Source: Achromobacter xylosoxidans (GTDB lineage: Bacteria > Pseudomonadota > Gammaproteobacteria > Burkholderiales > Burkholderiaceae_B). From it: a stretch of 64,000 bases of DNA. The stretch lies in NCBI RefSeq assembly GCF_001457475.1, contig NZ_LN831029.1, forward strand, positions 4,278,001 through 4,342,000, given 5' to 3'. The first letter of the stretch is position 1. The number at the start of each line of letters is the position of its first letter. The notes beneath the pieces are model-generated. The model saw only the letters and a program-made list of their open reading frames with translations, was not told the DNA's origin and did no database searches. The translations under genes and the position numbers were made by a program. Below, one piece after another: positions 12,306 through 25,309 of this stretch.

Positions 12306-13622
12306 TCAGCCCGCTTCCACGCCAGCGGACGCCGGGCGCCGGCCCGCTGCCGGCTCCGTGGCGTCCAACTCACTTACCGCTTCCAGGTCCCAACTGCGGC
12401 GCAGGTCGAAGCTCATGGCTGACAGCATGGTCAGGATGACCACCACGCCGAAGGCCGCGGCGCCCGCGCCGGCACTGATTTCCATCAGGCCCTGGAAATC
12501 GGCCAGGGCCGCCAGCAGGATCACGACGAACACGTCCAGCATCGACCATTGGCCGATGAATTCGACCATCTGGTACAGCCGCGTGCGCGGGCGCAGGTTG
12601 GTGGTGCTGCGCCACTGCTCGGTCAACAATAACAGGATCAGCGCCAGCAACTTGGTCAGCGGCACCGCCACGCTGGCGATGAAGACGATCAGCGCGATGT
12701 CCCAGGAGCCCATGTCCCACAGTTCCACCACGCCGCCCAGGATGGTGTGGGCGCTGTCGCCCAGCACCGAACTGACTTTCATCACCGGCAGCACGTTGGC
12801 GGGAATATAGAACACCACGGCCGCCAGCAACAGGGCCCAGGTGCGATTCAGGTGATCAGGCTTGCGGTAATGGACCACGGCGTGGCAACGCACGCAGTGG
12901 TGTTCTTCCTCGGGATCGGCGTCGCGCGGCACGGCCTGCACCTGGCCACAGACATGACAGCCTGTCAGCACCACGTCGGGGCCGGCCTCGGGCACGTGCA
13001 CCGGCACCACGCCCTCGCTTTCGGCGTAGCGCCACAGCACGTGCGGCGTCAGGCGGCCCAGCATGGTCAGGAAGATGGTGAGCACGCCAAAGGCGAACAG
13101 GCCGATGCCGGGCGAAACGGCCGCCATGCCGGCCAGCTTGACCACCGCCACCAGCACGCCGAGCAGGAACACCGGCACCATGCACCATGGCCGCAACAGG
13201 CCCAGCAATCGCATCGCGCCTCGGAACGCCGCCGGCTCGACGCCGCGCGACAGCGGGCCCAGCACCCACAACAACACCGCCAGCTGGACCAGCGGCAGCA
13301 CGAAGCCCGCCAGCCCGGTCATGACGGCCACGGTGTAATGCCCCTGGCGCCAGGTGATGTCGATGGCATCGAGCAGCGAGGCCTGCTGCACCATGCCCTG
13401 CACCGACATCGAGGCGACCGGATAGGCATTGGCCACGCCGAAGATGATCAGCGCGGCGATGGCAAGCGCCAGCCAATTGGACAAAGTAAGCCCGCTGTAG
13501 CGCCACAGGGTGGCACCGCAGCGGGCGCAATTGGCGGTCTCGCCAGGTTCGAGCTGATGTCGGCGATAGATGCTTGCGCAGTGCTCGCACTCGATCAGCG
13601 GCTGGCTCTCCGCGGTCGTCAT
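12306..13622 (-). CDS. pqiA: PqiA, inner-membrane component of the Pqi system
   Basis: A 438-residue protein with two similar halves. Each has a zinc-ribbon-like cysteine motif (CEHC...CARC near residues 13-36; CHVC...CVRC near 221-243) followed by about four hydrophobic segments. This duplicated layout is typical of PqiA/YebS. Transcription would be driven through the element at 13627-13894. The best ribosome-binding sequence (AGGGGGAG, complement of about 13633-13641) lies inside the terminal repeat of that element, 12 bases from the ATG. The pqi genes are named for induction by paraquat in E. coli; whether that holds here is unknown. Confidence 0.92.
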   Translation of the reverse strand: MTTAESQPLIECEHCASIYRRHQLEPGETANCARCGATLWRYSGLTLSNWLALAIAALIIFGVANAYPVASMSVQGMVQQASLLDAIDITWRQGHYTVAVMTGLAGFVLPLVQLAVLLWVLGPLSRGVEPAAFRGAMRLLGLLRPWCMVPVFLLGVLVAVVKLAGMAAVSPGIGLFAFGVLTIFLTMLGRLTPHVLWRYAESEGVVPVHVPEAGPDVVLTGCHVCGQVQAVPRDADPEEEHHCVRCHAVVHYRKPDHLNRTWALLLAAVVFYIPANVLPVMKVSSVLGDSAHTILGGVVELWDMGSWDIALIVFIASVAVPLTKLLALILLLLTEQWRSTTNLRPRTRLYQMVEFIGQWSMLDVFVVILLAALADFQGLMEISAGAGAAAFGVVVILTMLSAMSFDLRRSWDLEAVSELDATEPAAGRRPASAGVEAG

Positions 13623-13626
13623 AGGC

Positions 13627-13894
13627 AGGGCCTGCTCCCCCTAAAAGAAGCCTCGCACAGGCCTGTAATCGGCTGCCAGGCTAGGCGTGATCGCCGCCGC
13701 GTGGCTCCGCCACGCAAGGTGAGCGCAACGACGCCTGGCAGCCGATTACAGGCCTGCCCGAAGGGTGAGTACCCAAATGAGCGCCTCTCAGCGTTGCGAA
13801 TGCTCGCCGGGGGGCCGCCACGACTGCGCTTCGCGCCTTGATAGTCACTCATTTGGGTACTCATGCGAGGCTTCTTTTAGGGGGAGCAGGCCCT
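13627..13894. repeat. 268-bp cloverleaf-forming repeat element between clpA and pqiA
   Basis: Three perfect inverted repeats tile this stretch. Arm A is 31 bp at the ends (13627-13657 with 13864-13894). Arm B is 24 bp (13658-13681 with 13733-13756). Arm C is 16 bp (13766-13781 with 13848-13863). Arm B starts at the base after A, C ends at the base before A', and the nine bases between B' and C are CCCGAAGGG, itself a mini-hairpin (13757-13765). On the lower strand this reads as a C(UUCG)G tetraloop. The B loop holds another 7-bp hairpin, GCGTGGC/GCCACGC (13699-13715). The outer end touches the last base of the clpA stop, and pqiA begins four bases beyond the other end. No target-site duplication is visible. 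Open frames inside have no recognisable product. It looks like a MITE-like or REP-like element; copy number in the genome is unknown. Confidence 0.85.
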
Positions 13895-16203
13895 CATTCG
13901 ACGAGTTCGACTTCCTGCTTGTCCGGGGCGGCCGACGGCGGCTTGCCGTGGTCGTCGAAGTCCAGCGTGACCTTGCCGGCCTCGTCCAGGTCCACCGTGA
14001 CGGTGCCGCCATCGACCAGCTTGCCGAACAGCAGCTCGTCGGCCAGCGCGCGCCGGATGGTGTCCTGGATCAGGCGCTGCATCGGCCTGGCGCCCATCAG
14101 CGGGTCGAAGCCTTCCTTGGCCAGGTGCTCGCGCAGGGCCGTGGTGAACACGGCTTCGACGCGGCGCTCGTGCAACTGGTCTTCGAGCTGCATCAGGAAC
14201 TTGTCGACCACGCGCAGGATGATCTCGCGATCCAGCGGCGCGAACGGGATGATCGCATCCAGCCGGTTGCGGAACTCGGGCGTGAACATGCGGCGGATTT
14301 CCGCCATTTCGTCGCCCACCACACGCGAATTGGCGAAGCCGATGGACGGACGGTTCAAGGTCTCGGCGCCCGCGTTGGTCGTCATGATGAGGATGACGTT
14401 GCGGAAGTCCGCCTTGCGGCCGTTGTTGTCCGTCAGCGTGCCATGGTCCATGACCTGCAGCAGGATGTTGAAGACGTCCGGGTGGGCCTTTTCGATTTCA
14501 TCGAGCAGCAGCACGCAATGCGGCTGCTTGGTGATGGCCTCGGTCAGCAAGCCCCCCTGGTCGAAACCGACGTATCCCGGCGGCGCGCCGATCAGGCGCG
14601 ACACCGCATGGCGTTCCATGTACTCGGACATGTCGAAGCGCAGCAGCTCCACGCCCAGCGTGAAGGCCAGCTGGCGCGCGACTTCGGTCTTGCCGACGCC
14701 GGTGGGGCCGGAGAACAGGAAGGCGCCGATCGGCTTTTCCGGCTTGCCCAGGCCCGAGCGCGCCATCTTGATGGCGGCGGACAAGGCCTCGATGGCGTTG
14801 TCCTGGCCGAACACGACGGTCTTGAGGTCGCGGTCGAGCGTGGCGAGCTTGCTGCGGTCGTCGTTGGAAACCGACTGCGGCGGAATGCGCGCGATCTTGG
14901 AAACGATGTTCTCGATGTCGACCTTGCCGATCACCTTCTTCTGGCGCGAACGCGGCAACAGGCGCTGCGCGGCGCCGGCCTCGTCGATCACGTCGATGGC
15001 CTTGTCGGGCAGGTGGCGGTCGTTGATGAAGCGCGCCGACAGCTCGGCGGCGGCCGACAGCGCCGCGGCCGAATAGCGCACGTTGTGGTGTTCCTCGAAG
15101 CGGCTCTTCAGGCCGCGCAGGATCTGCACGGTCTGCTCGACGCTGGGCTCGGCCACGTCGATCTTCTGGAAGCGGCGCGACAGCGCGTGGTCTTTCTCGA
15201 AGACACCGCGGTATTCGGTGTACGTGGTGGCGCCGATGCACTTGAGCTGACCCGAGGACAGGGCCGGCTTGAGCAGGTTGGACGCGTCCAGCGTGCCGCC
15301 CGACGCCGAGCCGGCGCCGATCAGCGTGTGGATTTCGTCGATGAACAGGATGGCGTCGGGATTGCCGCGGATCTGCTTGAGCACGCCCTTCAGGCGTTGC
15401 TCGAAATCGCCGCGGTACTTGGTGCCCGCCAGCAGCGCGCCCATGTCCAGCGCGAACACTTGCGCGGCCTGCAGGATCTCGGGAACCTCGCCGCGCGTGA
15501 TGCGCCAGGCCAGGCCCTCGGCGATGGCGGTCTTGCCCACGCCGGCCTCGCCGACCAGCAGCGGGTTGTTCTTGCGGCGGCGGCACAACACCTGGATCAC
15601 GCGCTCGACTTCGTGCTCGCGCCCGATCAGCGGGTCGATGCGCCCGGCCAACGCCGCGGCGTTCAGGTCGGTCGCATACTGGTCCAGCGGCGACTGGCGC
15701 GATTCGCCCTGTTCTTCACCATTGGTTTGCTGCTCTTTCTGCACGGCGGCGGACTCCACCTGTGGCTGTTTGGTAATGCCATGCGACAGGAAATTCACCA
15801 CGTCCAGCCGCGTCACGCCCTGCTGTTGCAGGTAGTACACGGCGTGCGAATCCTTTTCGCCGAAAATGGCCACGAGCACGTTCGCGCCGGTGACCGGCTT
15901 CTTGCCGGTGCCGCCCGCGGACACGTGCATGATCGCGCGCTGGATGACGCGCTGGAAACCCAGCGTGGGCTGGGTGTCGACTTCCGCGCCGCTGGGGATC
16001 ACCGGCGTGTTTTCCGAAACGAACTGACGCAGGTTGCGGCGCAGGTCATCCAGGTTGGCGGCGCAGGCGCGCAACACTTCGACGGCGGAAGCGTTATCGA
16101 GCAGCGCGAGCAACAGGTGCTCGACGGTAATAAATTCGTGCCGGGCCGAACGGGCCTCGACAAAAGCCATATGCAGGCTGACTTCAAGCTCTTGGGAAAT
16201 CAC
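13894..16203 (-). CDS. clpA: ATP-dependent Clp protease ATP-binding subunit ClpA
   Basis: A 769-residue Hsp100 unfoldase that feeds substrates to ClpP. The N-domain (about 1-145, beginning [13 protein letters not shown]) is followed by two AAA+ modules with Walker A motifs [13 protein letters not shown] and [13 protein letters not shown]. The ClpP-docking loop is present as IGF (in PSIGFANSR). The start is taken at GTG 16201-16203, which has GGAGG four bases upstream and matches the ClpA N-terminus; an earlier GTG at 16239 would add 12 unrelated residues. The stop codon ends at the boundary of the repeat element. The adaptor gene clpS, normally adjacent, is 7.6 kb upstream on the same strand. 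Confidence 0.95.
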
Positions 16204-16258
16204 GCTTCCTCCGTAACGCATCGAAGCGGGCAAATACACGATTCATATTCTATGCCGA

Positions 16259-25265: not shown

Positions 25266-25309
25266 GACATGCAAAAAAGGGAGCCCGCGGGCTCCCTTTT
25301 TTGCATGTC
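25266..25309. terminator. 44-bp perfect palindrome, bidirectional terminator
   Basis: Bases 25266-25309 equal their own reverse complement. The GC core GGGAGCCCGCGGGCTCCC (25279-25296) is bordered by A6 and T6. It separates the convergent DUF192 and thiolase genes. Confidence 0.93.

Follow-up and report, generated by a model that had tools for sequence, protein, structure and literature searches.

To our knowledge, recognition of the small repeats known in bacteria depends either on their termini or on a short hairpin. Among the systems closest to the element analysed here, the enterobacterial RU/ERIC-type repeats are palindromic and carry reading frames, as set out in PMC2759123. The Bor repeats of Bordetella are presented in PMC1590033 as REP-like palindromes of 26-30 bp that lie near coding regions. 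TnpAREP cleaves at CT, according to PMC8266576.

The window, the whole 64-kb stretch of Achromobacter xylosoxidans DNA that was analysed, contains a 268-bp element between clpA and a pqiA-family gene. With the RU/ERIC-type repeats it shares a palindromic repeat with an open frame; however, its frame also has a sequence resembling a ribosome site in the end repeat, a start codon at the inner edge of this repeat and a stop codon provided by the insertion site. The Bor repeats are likewise palindromic and come from the same bacterial group, but are set apart by their described length. Like a MITE, the element is short, is bounded by perfect inverted repeats, lacks a transposase gene and has dispersed copies and empty sites, whereas the lack of a detected parent insertion sequence and of a clear target duplication, the pairing of its arms to the base and the retention of its length across families are unlike a MITE. 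The resemblance to REP/BIME sequences with a RAYT lies in the palindromic structure, the mostly extragenic location, the CT at the cut sites and the termini that give TAG stops. However, there is no family-wide link to a RAYT and none in the window's genome, and a four-way unit of 268 bp replaces hairpins of 20-40 bp; in place of the GTAG that precedes a REP/BIME hairpin, the common flank is CT and the element starts with AGGGCC. The element works like a MITE or a REP-type element yet fails tested features of each. It is real, dispersed and apparently mobile, and its cloverleaf is the conserved feature. No description of this 268-bp family was found in the titles and abstract openings listed from an open-access library.

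Geometry, setting and covariation

The cloverleaf drawn in the sequence-only reading proved exact to the base when recalculated by script from the window sequence: perfect 31-bp terminal repeats surround a 24-bp arm, the CCCGAAGGG mini-arm and a 16-bp arm, and the four-way junction has 0 unpaired bases (Table 1). Numbered within the element, the 31-bp outer stem encloses branches at 32-130, 131-139 and 140-237. On the gene strand the sequence of the mini-arm is CCCTTCGGG, matching the tetraloop proposed earlier. The geometry had also been called too exact for chance, and none of 200 dinucleotide shuffles was as stable in folds of both strands; the z-scores were -14.9, -16.1 and -17.9 (RNA on either strand and DNA on the plus strand). 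Four inverted repeats with exact arms of at least 16 bp and a span of at most 600 bp occur in the window, three of which are the arms of the element. The fourth (25266-25309) is a perfect hairpin with 22-bp arms and a poly-T side, and looks like an ordinary terminator.

Table 1. Positions in the window of the element, its parts and the adjoining genes
Feature	Position	Strand	Remark
Whole 268-bp element	13627..13894		three full copies in genome
Left terminal inverted repeat, 31 bp	13627..13657	+	pairs with 13864-13894
Right terminal inverted repeat, 31 bp	13864..13894	-	gives last base of clpA TGA
Arm 2	13658..13756		24-bp stem (13658-13681 with 13733-13756) and apical loop
Mini-arm CCCGAAGGG	13757..13765		three pairs invariant in 44/44 aligned copies
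Arm 3	13766..13863		16-bp stem (13766-13781 with 13848-13863) and apical loop
Element frame, 81 codons	13619..13864	-	clpA-pqiA strand; TGA overlaps pqiA ATG (ATGA)
Purine-rich AAAAGAAG before element ATG	13871..13878	-	AAAAGGAG in many other copies
AGGGGGAG, possible ribosome site	13635..13642	-	12 nt before pqiA ATG, inside terminal stem
clpA, upstream gene	13894..16239	-	ClpA model match
pqiA-family gene, downstream	12306..13622	-	PqiA-family model match

Contact with the clpA stop codon, read earlier from the window, holds exactly: on the gene strand the element begins with the final base of the TGA. The accompanying suggestion that the element supplies the ribosome-binding sequence of pqiA describes a possible role: the purine-rich AGGGGGAG is located 12 nt 5' of the ATG, but it falls within the 31-bp stem. 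The relatives without the element whose clpA-pqiA junctions had been sought for alignment do exist (17 loci in one comparison and 14 stretches in another). The closest relatives compared read GGCCTATTC where the window reads GGC[element]CATTC, and their clpA stop and pqiA start are 4 nt apart; other relatives diverge more. In one genome (G065, locus L162) the junction is GGC-AGGGCCT-TATTC, in which AGGGCCT is a likely remnant of element loss.

Pairing in the stems is maintained while their sequences change. Across 74 stem pairs in 44 aligned copies, 98.5% of cells are paired, compared with 87.3% after shuffling. Compensatory changes in the arms, which had been named as a check on function, are borne out: 48 of the 74 pairs (shuffled mean 20.4) and 276 cells (shuffled 45.7) have changes on both sides, values reached in 0 of 500 shuffles, although the copies share descent, so that the counts are not independent and these figures overstate independence. 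The 40 ungapped copies, from which those of 269 bp were excluded, provide 2840 stem cells, comprising 2776 Watson-Crick, 24 G-T, 20 A-C and 20 other combinations. There is no clear preference for G-U over A-C (24 vs 20, p = 0.65), and the pairing therefore looks kept as DNA. Diversity is 0.18 in the arm stems, 0.12 and 0.15 in the arm loops, 0.12 in the terminal stem and 0.05 in the mini-arm. One copy, from Bordetella ansorpii (L147:2158-2425), was excluded from the alignment and the pair counts; its arm-2 apex has the opposite orientation to that in other copies, as though an inversion had occurred between the two halves of the stem. Correction of palindromes by template switching could on its own keep the arms complementary, but it leaves the length kept across families unexplained.

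Dispersal, length and insertion sites

Membership of a dispersed family, supposed from the single copy in the window, is supported by the genome search, the relatives search and the end-motif count alike. The window's genome (one 6.8-Mb contig) contains three full-length 268-bp copies with 92-100% identity and a number of shorter derivatives; its end motif, at up to 3 mismatches, was found at 13 end sites, short and one-ended copies included, and the reversed motif used as a control at 0. Matches in the first relatives search came from 18 of 61 genomes (own included), all within the genus. At up to 1 mismatch, the end motif is present in 52 of 268 genomes of the bacterial family and in 13 of its 43 genera (reversed control, 0), and an exact scan of named-species genomes returned 35 stretches, each belonging to Achromobacter, Bordetella, Candidimonas, Paracandidimonas or Pigmentiphaga. 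In Achromobacter pulmonis NZ_POQS01000002.1 (L028/L044 and L159), two 268-bp copies that share their flanks lie 1020 bp apart, which suggests a segmental duplication. Elsewhere, a decayed copy retaining only its right end (L224, genome G015) occupies the same site as the copy at L003, and this insertion thus seems common to two species.

The element was not matched in plasmid and phage collections, from which records close to the window's genome may be absent. A 41-base query gave weak partial matches in only 3 plasmid records, the element pattern was found in 0 stretches of viral contigs, and two copies from other families had no match among plasmids, again with the possible absence of records close to the window's genome. 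A plasmid or phage vector, considered as a candidate, is not supported by these searches.

The length of the element is nearly constant. Among 56 distinct pairs of end motifs in the fetched loci, 41 are 268 bp long, 3 are 269 bp and 12 have other lengths, although the loci were mostly fetched by searches with the full element and are thus biased towards full length; the pairs of 294 and 1288 bp seem just to span neighbouring units. The 268-bp spacing recurs in three high-copy genomes of other genera, where it was found through the end motif alone. Shorter forms have one arm missing or trimmed to a short palindrome, with the mini-arm still present in several, and a 39-bp hairpin is a frequent derivative. 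Near-perfect palindromes of 47-49 bp, made of two end repeats placed head to head, were seen in Pigmentiphaga (L154:5138-5186) and Candidimonas (L140:2030-2076).

This constancy extends beyond the bacterial family. With the 79-residue reading of the element as query, 6 of 399 genomes of the order were matched, own included, and the remaining five, from four other families, contain nine copies. Eight of these copies, from three families (G599, G420, G326 and G503), are exactly 268 bp long, a result tempered by the preference of a protein-query search for gap-free copies of like length. All eight start with AGGGCCT or AGGACCT; in each, a CCCNNNGGG mini-arm occupies 130-138 and arm 2 closes at 139/237, and in six of them arm 3 closes at 32/129. 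The single copy from the fourth family (G042) is 283 bp long, with the mini-arm at 131. In fixed register, the identity of four other-family copies to the window copy is 0.29-0.56 in the arm stems, 0.47-0.58 in the terminal stem and 0.21-0.71 in the loops, and 56-63 of the 74 Watson-Crick pairs of the window's register hold in these copies, a count that is partly owing to bulges. Given this low identity, conservation of length to the base in the four copies tested is not explained by recent shared sequence. Both arm apexes share the motif types CAAGGCGC...GCAACGC and CTAGGCGC...GCAACAACGC.

Empty sites were queried for 16 copies, and 12 were fetched and aligned (L024, L025, L055 and L086 are not among them). 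The flanks of L002, L008, L013 and L014 are too different to fix the junction, leaving eight sites, which together with the window's own give nine informative ones. None has a target duplication longer than 2 bp, in agreement with the absence of a visible duplication in the window. L027 and L083 are clean insertions at CT^A, with no more than a single substitution; at other informative sites 1-2 junction bases have been changed, lost or gained, and insertion with no duplication is therefore inseparable from duplication of TA at targets containing it. Such targets account for five of the nine (the window's own, L027, L083, L052 and L061), which read CTAG, CTAA, CTAA, GTAG and CTAT. The other four (L045, L043, L023 and L003) are of the CTGA/TCAG/TTGA types.

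Insertions frequently coincide with stop codons. Full-length copies have 61 junction sides with a frame of at least 120 codons, and in 32 of these the longest frame is ended by T^AG at the junction (p = 0.0016 vs one third); at 28 of 46 full-length sites, at least one side has a gene-length frame ended by a junction-made TAG. With short forms included, 111 of 154 sides have such a frame; the phase is right on 74 of the 111, and T^AG, for which the T is needed, ends the frame on 67, the figure used here. All these counts rest on open frames rather than annotated genes and come from searches biased towards full-length copies.

The reading frame of the element

A feature that the sequence-only reading overlooked is a frame along the element on the gene strand, the TGA of which overlaps the pqiA ATG (Table 1). 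Its ATG lies at position 31, at the inner edge of an end repeat that contains AAAAGGAG in many copies and AAAAGAAG in the window. Of the 41 copies of 268 bp, 38 have this frame open through positions 31-238, and none of the other five frames is open in more than 13; four 269-bp copies were left out of this count and L147 was kept. In 32 of 48 copies the frame is 79 codons long, its stop being formed by the element's final T together with flanking bases. In 12 representatives chosen from 45 copies, pN/pS is 0.70 (95% interval 0.52-0.95), compared with 1.14 and 1.28 for frames 2 and 3. In another family, the frame is likewise present in five copies from two genomes, where it starts with GTG at 31; four of these have 79 codons and one is longer. 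The copies of G326, G503 and G042 have the shape, but the frame is absent.

Orientation is also uneven. Among 47 sites, 22 score as placed between same-strand genes that run in the direction of the frame, and 7 between genes that run the opposite way (p = 0.008). Taken singly, the counts are 29 vs 22 for ends of upstream genes (p = 0.40) and 36 vs 18 for starts of downstream genes (p = 0.02).

The product of the frame has matches in 37 protein clusters at E <=0.001, corresponds to no Pfam or NCBIfam model and is predicted to be unstructured (mean pLDDT 55, from a shallow alignment of 22 sequences). Given the lack of a protein family and of predicted structure, we think that translation of this frame matters more than its product. 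An ATG lies at the expected spacing in 24 of the 72 unpaired ends, but many of these 24 are parts of the element itself. In seven one-ended copies (L188, L194, L141, L150, L153, L202 and L143), the first 28-30 bases stand alone directly 5' of the start of another frame, with a length of 217-482 codons in six cases and cut by the end of the locus in the seventh. One of these leaders precedes a 313-residue protein starting MRIVFAGTPE, which we take to be methionyl-tRNA formyltransferase (after peptide deformylase), and follows a 179-codon frame ended by T^AG; another precedes a 438-residue protein starting MADLFSQEP, presumably RarA. Such copies suggest that hosts have kept the element leader as a ribosome site before genes of their own.

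Alternative explanations and proposed mode of spread

No mobilising enzyme or transposase tied to the element was identified. One explanation, considered unlikely, is an ordinary MITE that an IS630/Tc1-mariner-type transposase would move into CTAG with duplication of TA, the true element being GGGCC...GGCCC and the arms incidental. The flanks are consistent with this, having CT on the left at 31 of 46 distinct sites, AG on the right at 26 and both at 19, as is the TA in five of the nine informative targets; Tenzen and Ohtsubo, cited in PMC2170065, reportedly described a preference of IS630 for CTAG, and in G254 (L246, L248) an IS630-family copy of ~1170 bp, with CTAG on both sides, sits in a CTAG at the end of one element. 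However, four of the nine targets lack TA, and PF13358 (the IS630-type transposase) turned up in only 3 of the 14 genomes chosen among those with the element, and not in the window's genome, which argues against IS630 as the mobiliser in most hosts tested. A parent insertion sequence sharing the element ends was likewise not found among the fetched loci and the places listed for three high-copy genomes: the sole end pair of that size in the fetched loci, 1288 bp, joins two neighbouring copies, and a 909-bp pair in G228, inspected by eye among the places listed, contains a frame that looks like a regulator rather than a transposase. The kept 268-bp geometry would also be left unexplained. The IS630-family insertion sequence of G254 adjoins a partial element end elsewhere in that genome as well. 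Movement of a REP/BIME-type element by a RAYT (Y1 transposase), acting on single strands at CT dinucleotides, is distinctly improbable. The ends do fit cleavage after CT on both sides, the specificity described for TnpAREP, and insertion without duplication. Among the genomes of the genus, Y1_Tnp is present in 8 of the 25 that bear the end motif and in 2 of the 18 that do not, a non-significant trend (p = 0.15) that remains, and the two genomes with the highest counts in the genus, G019 (46 ends) and G024 (40 ends), have one each. Across the family, however, it does not track the motif (present in 12 of the 52 genomes with the motif and in 52 of the 216 without it; Fisher p = 1.0), and it was found neither in G254, with 62 ends, nor in the window's genome. 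For this genome, the likeness to REP/BIME drawn in the sequence-only reading fails on the transposase.

That reading had also likened the paired arms to structured RNA elements, and a structured RNA with a function, or an mRNA element with a regulatory role, would account for the very stable fold on both strands and the frequent position inside operons. Selection on RNA would tolerate G-U over A-C, whereas the two are about equally rare in the stems (24 vs 20), and the orthologous sites are empty. Rfam offers no known family at gathering score (MIR918 at 27.9 vs 268 bits; mir-3926 twice and STnc40, all below gathering), and an RNA function is regarded as very improbable. Least probable of all is a cassette that spreads a small protein gene and in which the palindrome would be a secondary feature. 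The intact 79-codon frame of most copies and its pN/pS, the 37 protein clusters and the five open frames in another family would fit such a gene, but no model in Pfam or NCBIfam fits the product, which is predicted to be unstructured from its 22 sequences, and the frame is missing in G326, G503 and G042 despite their shape.

The copies are dispersed, with empty sites and compensated stems; their length and junction are kept in other families, and they are frequently located at stop codons. The reading preferred here, with a probability of roughly 55%, is that the element is a non-autonomous mobile DNA element defined by a folded four-armed shape of near-fixed size (268 bp). The step from shape to mechanism draws on the geometry, on the strand-symmetric covariation and on the fact that no clear duplication was seen. 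A factor acting in trans would recognise the folded form, either as a single strand or as an extruded cruciform, and would cut at CT-purine targets and insert the element without target duplication; with ends of the form AG...CT, such an insertion would restore TAG on each side. In the Achromobacter/Bordetella branch, the element may persist inside operons because ribosomes can translate through it, using the ribosome-site-like sequence, the ATG at position 31, a frame of typically 79 codons and the flank-made stop. At the locus in the window, the element would have separated the clpA stop from the pqiA start and would now bridge the two with its own frame.

It is possible, and suggested here only tentatively, that the element represents a class of mobile DNA elements whose recognition depends on a folded four-way shape and not on sequence, in which 268 bp, the junction and the mini-arm are kept to the base across families while the stems turn over, and in which insertion at stop codons and a translatable frame allow silent passage through operons. 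A geometry that stays exact to the base although the stems drift would indicate a recombination machine able to read the shape of DNA. For selfish DNA, insertion at stop codons, combined with a start and a frame of its own and a stop taken from the flank, would offer a simple means of living inside operons.
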